Positions 26,028-50,263 of a stretch of 64,000 nt of DNA are shown in pieces. Position 1 is the stretch's first letter. The number at the start of each line of letters is the position of its first letter. The DNA is from Bifidobacterium sp. ESL0790 (GTDB lineage: Bacteria; Actinomycetota; Actinomycetes; Actinomycetales; Bifidobacteriaceae): assembly GCF_029395435.1 (NCBI RefSeq), contig NZ_CP113915.1:1674001-1738000 (forward strand). Direction: 5' to 3'. Made by a program: the position numbers and the translations under genes. Under the pieces are notes generated by a model. That model saw only the letters and a list, made by a program, of their open reading frames with translations. It searched no databases and had not been told where the DNA came from.

Positions 26028-27371
26028 TCAGAACAGCGCAATGATGTTGTAGAAGATGGCGCTCACCGCGATCACGCCGACCACGACGATGAACACGTTG
26101 CTGATCTTGTGAGAGTATTTCTTGAGCGCCGGCACCTTGTGGACGCCGTACATCGGCAGCAGCAGGAGCACGAAGGCGATAAGCGGGCCGGCCATGGTCT
26201 CGATCATGCCAATGGCAGAGGGATTGGCCCAGGCCACCAGCCAGCAGGCGAGGAACATGAAGACGCTGACGGCCACGCGCAGCGGCTTGCGCTCGATGAC
26301 CACATGACGGGTGTGCGCCACCTTGCGGATGATGCCGCCGAGCCCCTCCTCGACGCCGAGGTAGTGGCCGAGGAACGCCTTGAAGATGCAGACGAACGCG
26401 GTGATCGAGGCGATCCACGAGATGGCCGGGGTGCCCATCATGTTGGCCAGGTAGCTCAGGATGGAGACGTTCTGCGCCTTGGCCTTCACCAAATCGCCAG
26501 GCGTCAGGGCGAGGTCGCTGCTCAGCACGAAGAAGAGCACGACGGTGACCATCATGGGCTCGCCGACCTTCAAGATCTTGCCGATCTTGGCGTCCGCGTT
26601 CTCGCCATAGCGCCCGCGCACGTGCACGGAGAACGAGGAGATGATGGCGGAATGGTCGAACGTGAGCACGATGACCGGCATCAAGAGCCACAGCGCGAAG
26701 ATCAGCTGCCCGAAATCGAAGCCGCCGGAAGCGTTGCGCGGCACGCTGGTGAGCATCGACGGGTTCCAGCGCGGGATGAGGTAGAGCGCGAAAATCACCA
26801 GAACGGCGATGACCGGCCATGTCATCCAGCTCATCACGCGGGTGACCACCCCGGCGCCGCAGACCACAATCAGAATCAGCGCGGCGATCAGCACCAGGGA
26901 AAGCAGCCAGCGGTGCGGGGCCGACATGTGCAGCTGGTTGACGATGAAGCTTTCGGCAGTGTTGGTGATCGAGACCGAATACATCAAGAGGATGACCAGC
27001 ACCTCGATGAAGTAGATGATGGTGAAGACCATGCCGAAGCCGAAGCCGAAATGCTGCTCGACCACGTCGGTGATGTCGTCGCCGGGGTTCTTGGCCGAAA
27101 GCACGAAGCGGCACATCGCCCGGTGCGCGAAATAGGCCAGCGGATAGGCGACGGCCAGCATGAGCAGGATGCCGATGATGCCCGCACCGCCAGCGTCGAT
27201 GGGCAGGAAGAGCACGCCCGCGCCGATCGCCGTGCCGAAAAGGCTCAGCATCCATCTGATGTCACGGCCGTGCCATTTGAGCGCCTCGGCCCTGCCGCCG
27301 CTGGTCGACTGGCTCACATCCACCCGCTCGCCGCCGGCCGGTTTCGTTGAGACATCCGGTTTTGTCGTCAT
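26028..27371 (-). CDS. HAAAP-family amino acid permease, serine/threonine type
   Basis: 447 residues, eleven hydrophobic helices. The first helix region (RWMLSLFGTAIGAGVLFLPI, then AGGAGIIGILLML) is characteristic of SdaC/TdcC-type proton-amino acid symporters. Asp/Glu-poor loops and the motif NPGDDITDVVEQHFG fit the family. The ATG at 27371 has AAAGGGAAAG at about 10 nt. Position next to serS and tRNA-Ser supports serine as substrate, but this is context only. A 10-bp tandem repeat lies 40-85 nt upstream of the start. Confidence 0.88.
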   Translation of the reverse strand: MTTKPDVSTKPAGGERVDVSQSTSGGRAEALKWHGRDIRWMLSLFGTAIGAGVLFLPIDAGGAGIIGILLMLAVAYPLAYFAHRAMCRFVLSAKNPGDDITDVVEQHFGFGFGMVFTIIYFIEVLVILLMYSVSITNTAESFIVNQLHMSAPHRWLLSLVLIAALILIVVCGAGVVTRVMSWMTWPVIAVLVIFALYLIPRWNPSMLTSVPRNASGGFDFGQLIFALWLLMPVIVLTFDHSAIISSFSVHVRGRYGENADAKIGKILKVGEPMMVTVVLFFVLSSDLALTPGDLVKAKAQNVSILSYLANMMGTPAISWIASITAFVCIFKAFLGHYLGVEEGLGGIIRKVAHTRHVVIERKPLRVAVSVFMFLACWLVAWANPSAIGMIETMAGPLIAFVLLLLPMYGVHKVPALKKYSHKISNVFIVVVGVIAVSAIFYNIIALF

Positions 27372-27410
27372 GACAATGCCACTTTCCCTTTTGTTTTTAT
27401 TTGATTGTTG

Positions 27411-27456
27411 TGCTTTGTTGTGCTTTGTTGTGCTTTGTTGTGCTTTGTTGTGCTTG
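27411..27456. repeat. 10-bp tandem repeat upstream of the permease
   Basis: TGCTTTGTTG occurs four times in perfect register (27411-27450), flanked by partial copies. It lies 40-85 nt upstream of the permease ATG on the minus strand, within its likely promoter or leader. Confidence 0.9.
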
Positions 27457-34715: not shown

Positions 34716-35414
34716 ATGGATAAGCAAGAGCAAGACGCGCTGAAAAAGGCGGCCGGCATCGAAGGCGCCAAGTTCATCAAAGACGGCATGATCGCGGGCC
34801 TCGGCACCGGTTCGACCGTGCGGTTCCTGGTCGATGAGCTCGGCCGCCGCACGCAAGAGGAGGGCCTCAAGTTCACGGGCGTCACCACCTCGCGCCGCAC
34901 CGCCAAGCAGGCCGAAGGCTACGGCATCAAGATCGTCGACATCGATGACGTGGACCACATCGACCTGACCATCGACGGCGCCGACGAGGTGGACAGCAAC
35001 TTCAACGGCATCAAGGGCGGCGGCGCGGCGCTGCTCTGGGAGAAGATCGTCAACGAGAACTCGAACTACAACATCTGGATCGTCGACGAGTCCAAGGTGG
35101 TCGACACCATCGGCCGGTTCCCGCTGCCCGTCGAGGTCATCCCGTTCGGCTCGCGCCACGTCATCGACAAATTCGAGGCGAAGGGCTACAAGCCCGTGCT
35201 GCGCAAGAACGTGGACGGCACCGAGGTGCGCACCGACGAGAACAACTTCATCGTCGACCTGCATCTGGAGCGCATCGACCACCCGGAGGAGCTGGCCGAG
35301 GACCTCATCAACACGGTCGGCGTCGTGGAGCACGGCCTCTTCCTCAACCGCGTCGACAAGGTGATCGTCGGCAACCCGAACGGCCCGCGCGTACTCACCG
35401 TCTCCGAGGAGTAA
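34716..35414 (+). CDS. rpiA: ribose-5-phosphate isomerase A
   Basis: Interconverts ribose-5-phosphate and ribulose-5-phosphate, needed in the bifidobacterial pentose/fructose-6-phosphate shunt and for nucleotides. The 232 residues contain the RpiA substrate loop GLGTGSTVRFLVDEL, the catalytic DLTIDGADEVD with general-base aspartates, and KGGGAALLWEKIV with the active-site lysine/glutamate. An AAAGGAG site is 5 nt before the ATG. It is followed by the large palindromic array rather than by another gene. Confidence 0.95.
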   Translation: MDKQEQDALKKAAGIEGAKFIKDGMIAGLGTGSTVRFLVDELGRRTQEEGLKFTGVTTSRRTAKQAEGYGIKIVDIDDVDHIDLTIDGADEVDSNFNGIKGGGAALLWEKIVNENSNYNIWIVDESKVVDTIGRFPLPVEVIPFGSRHVIDKFEAKGYKPVLRKNVDGTEVRTDENNFIVDLHLERIDHPEELAEDLINTVGVVEHGLFLNRVDKVIVGNPNGPRVLTVSEE

Positions 35415-35556
35415 TCCAGGGAGTAAGGTGCTGGGATTGGTCGCTTGATCGCCTGGTTAATCGGTTGACCAGATCGCGTTGGCCAGCCTTCACGTACGAA
35501 ACCGGTACACGGCTTGATTCACAAGCCCGTACCGGTTCTTTTGTATCCACTACCCC

Positions 35557-36245
35557 ATTGCGTTTGCGACGCCAACACCCCACTAAGCGTCACATCTGCA
35601 ATATGACAGAAAAATGGTTGCGTTTGCGACGGTAACACCTCAATTAGCGTCACAAACGCAACTCACAACCGTTGCCCAGTTGCATTCGTGACACTAAACC
35701 CATCTTCTGCGTCACATCCGCAACCAACACAGTTGCGTTTGCGACGCCAACGCCCCACTTTGCGTCGCATCTGCAATGTGGCAAAGAAAAACGGTTGCGT
35801 TTGCGACACCAACACCTCAATTAGCGTCACAAACGCAACAATTACCGTTAGCTGGTCGCATTCATGCACTACATCCACTGTTTGCGTCGCAAACGTAACC
35901 CACACCATCGGCCAGTTGCATTCGTGACACTAAACACATCTTCTGCGTCACATCCGAAACCAATACAGTTGCGTTTGCGACGCCAACACCTCACTAAGCG
36001 TCACGTCCGCAACACAACAGTTACATTCGTGACGCTAATGCCCCACTTTGCGCACATCTGCAACCCACACAATTAGTCGGTTGCGTTCGCGACGGTAACA
36101 ACCCACTTTGCGTCGCATCTGCAACTCAATCGACCCGTTGCGTTTGCGACGCCAACACCCCACTTAGCGTCACAACTGCAATGTGACAAAGAAAATGGTT
36201 GCGTTTGCGACGCTATAACTGCAATTAGCGTCACAAACGCAACCA
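35557..36245. repeat. array of about twelve 46-bp palindromic units
   Basis: Each unit has a left arm like GTTGCGTTTGCGACGCCAAC, a 10-14-nt centre and a right arm like AGCGTCACAAACGCAAC, so each can fold on itself. Left arms start near 35558, 35616, 35679, 35731, 35794, 35854, 35914, 35967, 36021, 36080, 36137 and 36198: a period of 52-63 bp. Units 3 and 7 are nearly identical, and the spacer after unit 1 resembles those after 4 and 11, which suggests block duplication. It fills the gap between convergent rpiA and tpx; no gene lies inside. Confidence 0.88.
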
Positions 36246-36349: not shown

Positions 36350-36853
36350 TCAGAGCGACTCGACGGCCTTTCGGACGGCGTCGTAGTCGGGCTCGTCGTG
36401 AATCTCGGCGACCTGCTGGGTGTAGGCCACCTTGCCGTCCGCGTCGATGACCACGACCGCGCGCGAAAGCAGGCCGCGCATGCCACCGTCGGCGATGGTC
36501 ACGCCGTAGTCCTCGCCGAACGAGGAGCGGAAGACGGAGCCAGTGACGACGTTCTCGATGCCCTCGGCGCCGCAGAAGCGGGCCTGGGCGAACGGCAGGT
36601 CCTTGGAGACGCAGACCACGGTGACGCCGTCCAGGTCCTCGGCCATCTTGTTGAACTTGCGCACCGACATCGAGCAGGTGGCCGTGTCGAGCGAGGGGAA
36701 GATGTTGAGGATGACCTTGCGGCCGGCGAACTTGTCGAGGCCGAAGTCGTTGAGATCGCCATCGGCGATGGAGAAGGCCGGGGCCGCAGAGCCGACGGCG
36801 GGGAGATTTCCTACGGTGCGAGTGGGCGCACCACCCAAAGTAATTTGTGCCAT
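36350..36853 (-). CDS. tpx: thiol peroxidase, atypical 2-Cys peroxiredoxin
   Basis: Reduces hydrogen peroxide and alkyl hydroperoxides, taking electrons from thioredoxin. 167 residues, the normal Tpx length, with the peroxidatic Cys60 in the family motif LDTATCSMSVRKFN and the resolving Cys94 in QARFCGAEGIENV. N-terminal GNLPAVGSAAPAFSI is typical. The Shine-Dalgarno before the ATG is weak. The gene stands alone, with palindromic repeats on its downstream side and other repeats upstream. Confidence 0.95.
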   Translation of the reverse strand: MAQITLGGAPTRTVGNLPAVGSAAPAFSIADGDLNDFGLDKFAGRKVILNIFPSLDTATCSMSVRKFNKMAEDLDGVTVVCVSKDLPFAQARFCGAEGIENVVTGSVFRSSFGEDYGVTIADGGMRGLLSRAVVVIDADGKVAYTQQVAEIHDEPDYDAVRKAVESL

Positions 36854-40190: not shown

Positions 40191-43067
40191 TTGAGAAGCG
40201 ACACGAACAACAAGCTCATCAAAACGGCGATCGCGCTGCTCGCGGCCACGGCGATGCTGGCGGCCCCGCAGCTCGCCAGCGCGGCGACACCGCCGGTCTC
40301 ACCGCAGGTTGATGGCAGCACGGCCGCGCCCACGCAGCAAGGCGACTCGAGCCAGGCAACCGGCGAGCAGTCTGGTACGCAAACCCCAAGCAAGGATGAG
40401 CCCAGTGCTGCTCCCGCTCCAGCGTCGAAGCCCGAGACTTCACAACAGACCGACACACACCAGCAACTCGGTTCGGCCCCGCAGTCACCAGTCTCAGCTT
40501 CCGATTCGACACTTGCGCAAAGCAACCAACCAACCGTAGGTCCGCAAAGCAGTTGCAACGACTCAGGAATCACACCTTGGGGCACCAATGCCTACTGGCA
40601 TGTAGACTCTGACTGTGTGCTGCACTTTGGCGCAGTTGATACCTCCCAGCCGGCAACCCTAGGTGTAACCAGCCGAATAAGCTATGGCGAGGTGCATAGA
40701 GTGCTTCCTTGGTTTGACTGGTCTTATCACGTGCAGAAAGTAAAATTCGACTCTGCTGTCCAAGCCGCAACCAGATCAGCCTGCCTGTTTGGCGAGCTTC
40801 GAAATGTTACCGAAATTCAAAATCTAAATTTACTTGACACTAAAAATGCCACCAACCTGAAAGAGATGTTCGATGAAGACAATAAGCTGACCAGCCTAGA
40901 CCTCAGCAACTTCGACACCAGCAACGTCACCAGCATGGACAGCATGTTCGCCGACACCTGGGGGTTAACCAACCTGGACCTCAGCAACTTCAACACCAGC
41001 AAGGTCACCAACATGGGCGGCATGTTCTACGACGACTGGGGGCTGCGTAGCCTAGATATCAGCAGTTTCGATACCAGTAACGTCACAAGTATGAGTTGGG
41101 AGTTCGACGCCGATCACTTGCTTACTTTTATCCGTCTTGGGAAAGACACGACAATCAAACCCCATAATGAGCTCCCAAGTGCCATATGGACCAGCGAAGA
41201 TGGCATCTCAGGAGATCCAAGCACTGACCCCACTCCTTTCGGTACACGGTCGAAAGCCATGTGGTATAGCAAAGTTTCCATCGCGTATCTCTTCGACGGC
41301 AATGGCGCTTCGGGTGGAACTCCCGTCCCGCTGGCAGTATCTGGCAGCACATACACGGCACCAGACCGCAACTCGTTGGAAAAGACCGGTTATGAATTCT
41401 TGGGCTGGTCGGCCTCATCCGAGGCGACGGAACCCACATACCACCAAGGTGACCCTCTTACCGAATACAGCGGCAACACAGTGAGGCTATACGCGGTATG
41501 GAAAATCATTCCAGTGGCAAACATGACGGATATTACAGCGCCCAAATCCTCCGAGGGACTGAATGTAGACAACAACTCTGAAGTGACGATTACGGGGACC
41601 CTGACACCTGCCTCAGGAGCCGACGACGTATCGGTGAGCCTGCTCCCCTCTGGCAGCACCAGCGCGACTCCGTCCGACGGCAAACAAGGGACGACGACGT
41701 TCAACATGAGCGCGAACACATGGTCCGCCACGTTCCACGCCTCTGATTTCACCGACACGGCCGCCGACACAACCGGCACGGGCGTCGACTACGTCATCCG
41801 CGCCCGCCTGCACAACAGCGATGGCGACTCGGCCTACACCTACAAGACCGTGCACGTCGACATGACCGCGCCGTCGCCGAGCAACCTGGTCTCGGACCAT
41901 CAGAAAGTCACCGGAACGGCCATGTCCGCGAAGGACGGGCTGAGCGGGGTGACGCCGGCCGCCGAGCAGAACACGACCGTCACCATCACCTGGCTCGACA
42001 AGGACGGCGACGCGATCACGGCCGATACGCCGAGCGTGGTGACCAGCGCCGCCGACGGCACGTTCGAGGCGAACTGGCCGACCGACCGCAAGGCCGTGAA
42101 AGCCGGCGTGCAGGCCAAAGACACGACCGGCAACACCAGCGCCACGACCACACTGGACCTTGGCCGCCCGGCCGACCCGGATTCCACGATCAGCCCCGAA
42201 GCTCCCACCGCAACGGCGGGCGTTACCCCGACGGGCCAAGTCAGCGTGACGGGCACCGTCAGCGGCACCCACGCGGGAGACAGCGTGATCGTTCGCCTCC
42301 TGCCCTCCGGCAAGACCGCCACCGACGCCGAGGCCGGGCAAGGCATCCTCGCCGACAGCCCGACCCTCGACACCTCGACCGGCGCATGGACGGCAGACTT
42401 CCCCAACTCGGCGTTCGCCGATGAGATCGGAACCGGTACCGAGCACACGTTCTGCGCCAAGCTCCACACCGACCACAACGGTGACTCGGCCTATACCTGC
42501 CAGCAGCATAACGTCGACATGGTCGCGCCTGTGGCCACCCAGGTCACGTTCACCGCGCCCGCCGGCTCCGCGAGCGGCATGGTGACCGGCAAGGTCCTCT
42601 CCTCCGCCGACGAGACGGCCCAGCCGCACCGCGCCGCCGAGGGGCATGTGACGCTGACGCTCGCCTGGTTCGACGCCGACGGGCAGCCATTGACGACGCC
42701 GGGTACGCTCAGCCGTGGCGGCACGCCGTTGACCACGACCGCCACCAGCCAGACCGACGGCACCTTCAGCGCCGAATGGCCCGCGAGCGTGCGGCTCGGC
42801 TACTACGTCACCGTCACCGCGCGGGACGGCGCCGGCAACACCAGCGCCCCCACCAGCATGATGCGCCTCGGCACACCCGCCTCCTATCAGCCTCAAGGCA
42901 GCTCAGGCCGCGGCTCCGGCAGCAACAGCGCGAACGGGAACGGCCCGAATCGGAATGGTCGCCTCTCCTCCACCGGCGCGGCCATCGCCGGGACCGCCAT
43001 GGTGGCGATCCTGATGGCGGGCATTGGCTTGGTACTCAACCGCTCCAAGGCCCATATGAGCAAATAG
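40191..43067 (+). CDS. large cell-wall surface protein with BspA repeats and Ig-like domains
   Basis: 958 residues from a TTG with GGGAGG at 8 nt. Order: signal peptide (KTAIALLAATAMLAAPQLASA), Ser/Thr/Gln-rich linker, BspA-type DUF285 leucine-rich repeats at about 207-314 (LTSLDLSNFDTSNVTSMDSM), an InlB/Flg_new B-repeat at about 364-440 (YLFDGNGASGG to LYAVWK), at least three Ig-like units at about 447-890 (NTSATTTLDLGRP closes one), a Gly/Ser/Asn linker, then LSSTG at 925, a hydrophobic helix and a basic tail. This is a sortase-type anchor with a non-canonical motif. Probable adhesin. Third-codon GC rises sharply from the LRR part to the Ig part. Confidence 0.9.
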   Translation: MRSDTNNKLIKTAIALLAATAMLAAPQLASAATPPVSPQVDGSTAAPTQQGDSSQATGEQSGTQTPSKDEPSAAPAPASKPETSQQTDTHQQLGSAPQSPVSASDSTLAQSNQPTVGPQSSCNDSGITPWGTNAYWHVDSDCVLHFGAVDTSQPATLGVTSRISYGEVHRVLPWFDWSYHVQKVKFDSAVQAATRSACLFGELRNVTEIQNLNLLDTKNATNLKEMFDEDNKLTSLDLSNFDTSNVTSMDSMFADTWGLTNLDLSNFNTSKVTNMGGMFYDDWGLRSLDISSFDTSNVTSMSWEFDADHLLTFIRLGKDTTIKPHNELPSAIWTSEDGISGDPSTDPTPFGTRSKAMWYSKVSIAYLFDGNGASGGTPVPLAVSGSTYTAPDRNSLEKTGYEFLGWSASSEATEPTYHQGDPLTEYSGNTVRLYAVWKIIPVANMTDITAPKSSEGLNVDNNSEVTITGTLTPASGADDVSVSLLPSGSTSATPSDGKQGTTTFNMSANTWSATFHASDFTDTAADTTGTGVDYVIRARLHNSDGDSAYTYKTVHVDMTAPSPSNLVSDHQKVTGTAMSAKDGLSGVTPAAEQNTTVTITWLDKDGDAITADTPSVVTSAADGTFEANWPTDRKAVKAGVQAKDTTGNTSATTTLDLGRPADPDSTISPEAPTATAGVTPTGQVSVTGTVSGTHAGDSVIVRLLPSGKTATDAEAGQGILADSPTLDTSTGAWTADFPNSAFADEIGTGTEHTFCAKLHTDHNGDSAYTCQQHNVDMVAPVATQVTFTAPAGSASGMVTGKVLSSADETAQPHRAAEGHVTLTLAWFDADGQPLTTPGTLSRGGTPLTTTATSQTDGTFSAEWPASVRLGYYVTVTARDGAGNTSAPTSMMRLGTPASYQPQGSSGRGSGSNSANGNGPNRNGRLSSTGAAIAGTAMVAILMAGIGLVLNRSKAHMSK

Positions 43068-49926: not shown

Positions 49927-50263
49927 AACGTTTCCTTGATATATAACCGTTTCATAATAAGGATATCCGCGAATCCATATATTGCCTAGACCCGCACATC
50001 CCAATGAAGAAACGGACCCTTGACCAACGAATAGTCCGTTCCTTCACACCAACACACTCTACCTGTTACGAAACGGAATCTTACGAAGCCCCACAGTCCG
50101 TTTCGTCACAGGACCACACCCGACCTGTCACGAAACGGAACCCTAAAAGATGTCACAGTCCGTTCCGTCACATGACCAGAGCCCAATGGTCACCAAACAA
50201 AATCAGCGACTGCCATCTGCCGCGAGATGACGCTGCAGGTGACAATCGCTGGGGGGTCGGATG
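49927..50263. repeat. three-unit palindromic array between infB and rbfA
   Basis: CCTGTTACGAAACGGA ... TCCGTTTCGTCACAGG (50062-50112) and CCTGTCACGAAACGGA ... TCCGTTCCGTCACATG (50124-50174) repeat at a 62-bp period; a diverged first unit (GAAACGGA ... TCCGTTCC) lies at 50010-50045. Read in the other phase, AGTCCGTTTCGTCAC ... GTCACGAAACGGAAC parallels the arms of the rpiA-tpx array. No gene is visible in the 337 bases. Confidence 0.8.

Follow-up and report, generated by a model that had tools for sequence, protein, structure and literature searches.

What is the run of imperfect palindromes that lies between rpiA and tpx in Bifidobacterium sp. ESL0790, and what might it do? The DNA analysed here (the window) is 64,000 nucleotides long. 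A sequence-only reading of it described about twelve palindromic units of about 46 bp between these two convergent genes. Four possible roles were offered: a transcription barrier, an RNA structure array, a protein-binding array, and a target for a repeat-associated transposase. We find that the array is one member of a genome-wide family, which that reading missed.

The array in the window

The array contains 12 units, each made of two inverted half-sites (Table 1), and the earlier description of the locus holds. The units are imperfect palindromes of about 46 bp, and their start-to-start distance is 52 to 62 bp. The half-site pattern TTGCNTNTGYGACG, with at most one mismatch, has 19 matches in the window, of which 17 fall inside the array. 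The mean in 100 shuffles was 1.08 and the maximum was 4, so chance is excluded for the window array.

Growth by block duplication had also been proposed, and the alignment confirms the duplication. Positions 35668-35776 and 35904-36012 (units 3-4 and 7-8) are 88% identical over 109 nt. The spacers that follow units 1, 4, and 11, which were said to repeat, are visibly similar. A lack of unit periodicity, or a match to a known repeat family, would count against an array of this kind. The periodicity is strong. A search of the window against Rfam 15 placed only two tRNAs above the gathering score, and the array had no RNA family match.

Table 1. Features of the array and its surroundings (positions in the window)
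Feature	Position	Strand	Remark
rpiA, ribose-5-phosphate isomerase A	34716..35414	+	Left neighbor of the array
Hairpin and short T-run 3' of rpiA	35500..35544	+	Read by eye as rpiA's own terminator; no call in the consensus scan
Whole array	35557..36243	.	12 units of two inverted half-sites
Unit 1	35557..35602	+	
Unit 2	35617..35662	+	Core pairs through; T-rich tail on minus strand
Unit 3	35679..35724	+	Within the duplicated 109-nt block
Unit 4	35732..35777	+	Almost wholly within the duplicated block
Unit 5	35794..35839	+	Core pairs through; terminator-like on minus strand
Unit 6	35854..35899	+	Degenerate left half-site
Unit 7	35915..35960	+	Second copy of the block of unit 3
Unit 8	35968..36013	+	
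Unit 9	36020..36064	+	Right half-site one base short
Unit 10	36080..36125	+	
Unit 11	36137..36182	+	
Unit 12	36198..36243	+	Highest symmetry; terminator-like on minus strand; encountered first by tpx transcription
tpx, thiol peroxidase	36350..36853	-	Right neighbor of the array, convergent with rpiA

Other repeats were also seen in the window. A second array family occupies 50033..50178 (no strand assigned), between rbfA-like and infB-like genes (named by eye). Its half-site is approximately GTCCGTTTCRTSACAG and its period is about 62 bp. The layout is similar, and the letters are different. It is outside the count of 23 arrays given below. Further GTCCGTTTCRTSACAG arrays were found in the same genome at C1:2062.2k, 2172.5k, and 2193.9k. 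Positions 27405-27455 contain five perfect copies of the 10-bp sequence TTGTTGTGCT, a candidate slippage switch. This repeat precedes the start codon of an amino-acid-permease-like open reading frame (26028-27371, minus strand) by 34 bp.

Genome-wide family and half-site geometry

We refer to the genome of the window as G000 and to the Bifidobacterium relatives compared with it by other G numbers. With the array DNA as the query, 57 matching places were retrieved from G000, itself included. A covariance model search of G000 gave at least 147 matches, both strands included. G000 contains at least 23 arrays with 175 units and 341 half-sites in arrays; because 150 of 1,635 covariance candidates were scored, 23 is a floor. 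One arm is weak in some of the 175 units. A half-site matrix was trained on the same loci that it scanned and was used at a score of at least 11 with no spacing rule. It found 344 half-sites in G000, 341 of them inside the 23 arrays. Strict-pattern matches were almost confined to the arrays: 114 of 117 in forward and 108 of 110 in reverse orientation. Two more in each orientation belong to isolated units at 409.3k and 909.6k, which do not form arrays and are outside the count, and one forward match was not located.

The half-site consensus is GTTGC-RWWY-GYGACGC, followed inward by an A-rich WAA. The left-arm blocks TTGC, G, and GACG are 90.5% identical between arrays. The 4-bp core RWWY varies freely, and the two arms of a unit often differ there.

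Within a unit, the inverted half-sites are separated by exactly 30 bp in 164 of 166 pairs, and the other two pairs are at 29 and 31 bp. The central unit columns 19-26 carry only 0.10-0.43 bits of information. Adjacent half-sites alternate in direction in all but 5 of 318 steps. Four of these exceptions are steps of 60 bp or more, which look as if the partner half-site had scored too low. From one unit to the next, 107 of 147 half-site distances measure 30-33 bp. Nineteen, from 6 of the 23 arrays, measure 20-24 bp, about one helical turn less. Another 10 cases are off phase at 35-38 bp, and 11 have other values. With the 31/32 mode removed, 35 of 52 distances lie no more than 2 bp from 21 + n x 10.5 bp (chance, 42%; p = 3e-4). 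The unit periods in G000 are 61-62 or 51-53 bp.

Chromosomal position

The dnaA gene is found at the end of the contig in G000, G139, and G140; in G028 its position is 1.892 Mb. Arrays are concentrated in the origin half of the chromosome in G000 (19 of 23; KS p = 1e-4), G140 (14 of 17; p = 0.005), G139 (11 of 14; p = 0.004), and G028 (4 of 4; p = 0.03, with only four arrays). When neighboring arrays were merged, the bias was weaker (p = 0.007, 0.024, 0.018, and 0.07, respectively). No array was found in G000 between 0.393 and 1.348 Mb, where the single units at 409.3k and 909.6k lie. The flanks of the origin, 20 kb each way, contain no strict-pattern half-site on either strand.

For this test, the array positions of the relatives were entered by hand. 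It left out 7 of 34 pattern-match places in G140, 5 of 25 in G139, and 8 of 13 in G028. All 20 were inspected; they lie in open frames of 161-533 amino acids, and none is array-like. A weak place at 2157k in G028 is also outside the test.

The arrays are not parS. The site TGTTTCACGTGAAACA is absent from them, and its 14-bp core was found in only one (L049) of 156 loci. That lone parS-like core (L049:4281-4294; G000 C1:393.78k) is inside an ABC-F-like gene, with an array some 0.9 kb away. A dense parS cluster is present at L157:8349-14834, with 11 matches (10 perfect and 1 with one mismatch) in 6.5 kb. It surrounds parAB-like genes (named by eye) and is separate from the arrays.

Relatives and shared loci

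The strict pattern was found in 5 of 99 genomes, G000 included. A stricter pattern matched one record in a genome-contig collection from which G000 is possibly left out, and it had zero matches in viral contigs. A looser inner-motif pattern matched 45 of 112 genomes of the genus, mostly a few times each, and its reversed control gave 0-3 matches. Counts stand out in G000 (81), G140 (23), and G139 (11). The count is 5 in G028 and G071, where arrays were confirmed by sequence, and also in G059 and G144, which are known from counts alone.

The unit finder used for the relatives imposed the 30-bp pair spacing, so the unit-to-unit period is their only independent spacing measure. Among unit-to-unit distances below 80 bp, 49 of 52 in G140 are 62 bp and 32 of 35 in G139 are 51 bp. 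The two periods differ by one helical turn. The outer halves are TTGC in G139 and G028 and mostly GGAGG-type in G140, which also contains two TTGC-type arrays (61k and 1745k).

For seven G000 arrays, tblastn placed both flanking genes next to an array place in one or more other species. The SDR-dps locus is shared with G139 and G140, the GH32-permease locus with G140 and G028, and the rpiA-tpx locus with G140 and G071. The aldo/keto reductase-nitroreductase locus is shared with G071 and with G140, where 46 amino acids of one neighbor are inside the fetched stretch. The 2009k array is shared with G139, and G028 has a weak unit only. The two prs arrays are shared with G140. At these loci the flanking genes are constant and the outer half-site or the period changes. 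The G140 outer halves are GGAGG/GGCGG/GGCAC-like at five loci where those of G000 are TTGC (SDR-dps, aldo/keto reductase-nitroreductase, GH32-permease, rpiA-tpx, and prs). The G139 array at SDR-dps has 51-bp steps.

Some of these places carry no array in other relatives. The SDR-dps locus is array-free in G028 (156 bp with a hairpin), G004, and G015, and the rpiA-tpx gap is short, as judged by eye, in G004, G033, G076, and G028. The SDR-dps locus of G033 contains three units of an unrelated palindrome, TTTGTAGC / GCTACAAA, with a period of 60-61 bp (L150:542-670), and TTGC arrays are absent. Further palindromic intergenic families of a relative were seen at L089:2211-2299 and L063:1019-1160 (CGGCAGAAAATGGACA-like; GGCCGTTTTCTTGCAT-like).

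Gene context

All 175 units in the 23 arrays lie between called genes. Intergenic placement was judged by codon-usage gene calls, which miss some genes. The flanking genes are convergent at 9 arrays, co-directional at 12, and divergent at 2. Compared with 64 baseline gaps of more than 100 bp, for which the gene calls are incomplete (52% coding), the orientations did not differ significantly (p = 0.43 and 0.22), and convergent enrichment was not significant. The divergent starts of ftsY and a tetR-family gene flank one array.

A link to one neighboring gene family was rejected. A Pfam scan of all 41 called flanking genes gave no common family; most are housekeeping, transport, enzyme, and surface genes, and four have no Pfam match at 1e-5. 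A gene of 321 amino acids (L061:3484-4449, minus strand; G000 C1:2053.3-2054.2k) separates the two arrays of the prs locus. It has no Pfam or NCBIfam match. It has 67 database matches, itself included; the matches listed by name come from Bifidobacterium, and some are labeled AbiEi-antitoxin or CTP-synthase. The prs locus of G140 contains a 53% identical counterpart of this AbiEi-like gene, also between two arrays, and that of G139 contains a piece that is 61% identical, beside an array. We see no reason to take its product as the array binder.

Repeats resembling DUF285 surface proteins were noted by eye in the window at 40886-41086. At L056 (G000 C1:1905000-1923900), three genes contain Pfam DUF285, and four arrays lie in a 13-kb stretch around them.

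Arm pairing

The sequence-only reading held that the arms change in step and so keep pairing. This was not borne out. In the 12 window units, 79.5% of cells are paired, compared with 79.7% after the letters of the 3' arm were shuffled. The covariation score is 0.093, compared with 0.095 shuffled, so these arms show no covariation. Predicted folds of the window have unbroken pairing across the outer ten positions in units 2, 5, and 12 only.

Across the genome, arm-arm matches (2,009 of 2,800) are fewer than in global shuffles (2,056 +/- 16). Shuffling within arrays gave 1,992 +/- 10 over 16 positions, a slight excess for the real arms (p = 0.049). At core positions 5-7 there are 213 matches, compared with 199 +/- 6 (p = 0.011). 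Fully pairable (identical) cores occur in 31 of 175 units, compared with 23.2 +/- 2.7 in within-array shuffles (p = 0.0035). This core excess counts against purely independent arms. It may stem from unit duplication, because removal of near-duplicate units left 1,598 matches compared with 1,584 +/- 10 (16 positions; p = 0.09). Hairpins kept by pairing were rejected, or at least set back, by the absent covariation in the window and the genome.

When standard pairs including G-U were counted, RNA from the leading strand paired better (2,352 of 2,800) than RNA from the other strand (2,097). In 20 of the 23 arrays, the loops are richer in G+T on the leading strand, and the degenerate R/Y positions are skewed likewise. 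Better pairing on the leading strand thus needs no selection on RNA, since the same skew is found in unpaired loops. Unit orientation was dropped as a signal because the loop skew tracks the leading strand.

Interpretation

Among the four roles proposed, a protein-binding array fits best, with a putative binder. It does so because of the conserved half-site sequence, the 30-bp geometry, the steps of about one turn, and the origin-side distribution. We put the probability at roughly 45% that the 23 intergenic arrays, with their helix-matched spacing, are bound by a putative sequence-specific protein and serve to mark, or bring together, the origin side of the chromosome. One protomer would occupy each half-site and would touch TTGC and GACG about one turn apart, across the AT-rich core. 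Each unit would take a pair of protomers about three turns apart, and successive units would continue on about the same helix face. An array filled from one face could form a long, one-sided nucleoprotein filament or cluster. Filled arrays would then mark or gather the origin side. Binding may be cooperative, and its output would probably be chromosome organization or the timing of division or segregation rather than local gene control.

Several findings weigh against protein binding of this kind. They are the slight within-array arm agreement, the excess of pairable cores, the terminator-like units 2, 5, and 12, the off-phase distances of 35-38 bp (10 of 147), the weaker origin bias of merged arrays, the array-free loci in relatives, and the parAB-like genes and parS cluster that are already present.

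If the arrays are protein-bound, they would be a chromosome-scale addressing system; the literature searched gave none for the genus. The species-specific outer half-sites and the one-turn change in pitch at shared loci would then be a natural experiment on the joint change of a binder and hundreds of its sites. It is a bolder and unlikely proposal that the arrays are a new class of chromosome-organizing element, with an outer sequence (TTGC to GGAGG) and a pitch (62 to 51 bp) rewritten genome-wide from one species to the next, in step with a co-evolving putative binder.

A non-autonomous mobile or self-homogenizing repeat of the REP/BIME/REPIN kind is the main alternative, and a somewhat improbable one. 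Its spacing would be inherited from the copied template, and the species versions would arise by turnover. The family has more than 100 copies, is extragenic, and lies mostly behind gene 3' ends. The window array contains a block duplication, the versions differ by species, and relatives have array-free sites. REPs too are extragenic and clustered; they are found downstream of genes, and their sequences are often specific to a species (PMC3733652). BIMEs are described as regularly spaced REPs in alternating orientation (PMC2817692).

The enzyme that such a repeat might use was not found. A Y1_Tnp transposase was detected in none of eight genomes (G000 and seven relatives), compared with 5 of 14 control genomes, and the 41 flanking genes share no enzyme family. 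The role as a transposase target is not supported in its REP/RAYT form, since no IS200/IS605-type (Y1_Tnp) transposase that could mobilize a REP was found in these eight genomes. In Stenotrophomonas BIMEs, the lengths between REPs vary much and the palindromes keep pairing (PMC2817692), whereas here the spacing is rigid and the arms do not stay complementary. Inheritance by itself would also be expected to leave indels in spacers with near-random central bases. CGTC-tagged REPs have an unpaired CGTC tag, a stem starting with AT, and a loop of 4-5 (PMC3733652). By inspection, CGTC in the arrays is followed by RC-RWWY-GCAA, or in G140 by RC-(AT-rich)-CCTCC, and by no stem. If the arrays are a mobile repeat, they would form a REP-like family in which no RAYT was detected. 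The repeat system is real and structured, is seen in a few Bifidobacterium genomes in a REP/BIME-like setting, and fails the transposase and pairing features tested.

We consider it distinctly unlikely that the arrays are RNA hairpins that terminate, insulate, or stabilize mRNA at transcript 3' ends, with the window array as a tpx terminator block. Units 2, 5, and 12, read on the minus strand, each combine a stem of 15-16 standard pairs with a T-rich tail after it, and tpx transcription would run into unit 12 before the others. Their tails derive from the similar spacers after units 1, 4, and 11. Genome-wide, 21 of 23 arrays adjoin the 3' end of at least one neighbor (the exceptions are at 202k and 2054k), leading-strand RNA pairs better, and pairable cores are in excess within arrays. 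Against this, T-rich tails are rare across the genome (17 of 350 unit-strands). They occur on 6 of 62 well-paired unit-strands, compared with 11 of 288 others (p = 0.09). A consensus terminator scan gave 2 sites in the region, compared with 1.8 +/- 1.2 expected by chance; of units 2, 5, and 12 it called unit 5 only. The window arms do not covary, and the strand difference in pairing accompanies a G+T skew common to unpaired loops. The tetR-ftsY array sits between gene starts, the gene-pair orientations do not differ significantly from a rough baseline, and linker differences of about 10 bp are not expected of RNA.

The transcription barrier of the sequence-only reading thus has local support on the tpx strand, at units 2, 5, and 12. 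It is opposed by the genome-wide rarity of tails and by the array between divergent starts. The RNA structure array is weakened as a general hairpin reading because the arms do not covary. Terminator use is plausible for the window array and does not explain the family. Besides any protein binding, the three units may terminate transcription on the tpx strand.

A guide-RNA or CRISPR-like array with fixed-length spacers is very improbable: the units are regular with variable stretches of fixed length, and the relatives of TIGR include palindromic stem-loop arrays (PMC12045711), but no Nop-domain match was found among the 41 flanking genes, the 23 arrays are dispersed rather than one locus beside a tas gene, the unit is about 61 bp and not 36 nt, and viral contigs lack the strict pattern.

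Comparison with known systems

We found no report of these arrays in the open-licence literature searched, as far as its available text goes. The arrays resemble ParB-parS in having palindromic sites on the origin side, and their sequence differs from parS. Plasmid centromere and iteron arrays such as sopC contain tandem fixed-length repeats, each with a palindrome for a DNA-binding protein. The arrays described here are instead chromosomal, are dispersed in 23 copies, and have no partition gene among the scanned flanks. Paired boxes of the NrdR type consist of two sites separated by an integral number of helical turns. The arrays differ from these in sequence, in forming long arrays, and in their 3' location.

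REP and BIME elements are alike in being extragenic, high-copy palindromic units with regular alternating spacing, mostly on gene 3' sides and often species-specific (PMC2817692, PMC3733652). The arrays differ in that no RAYT was found, the arms are not kept complementary, and the geometry is a rigid 30 bp with periods of 51 or 62 bp. The array element is a bipartite half-site, and the REP is a stem with a loop of 4-5 nt.

Noc (NBS) and SlmA (SBS) bind palindromic sites that are spread over the chromosome, are missing from the terminus, and can carry information on chromosome position (PMC4331003). These are about 70 discrete sites for a known protein (PMC4331003), compared with long tandem arrays for a putative binder here. 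The arrays share with them palindromic sites that are depleted from the terminus, in four genomes (G028 with four arrays, and G000 with the lone unit at 909.6k).
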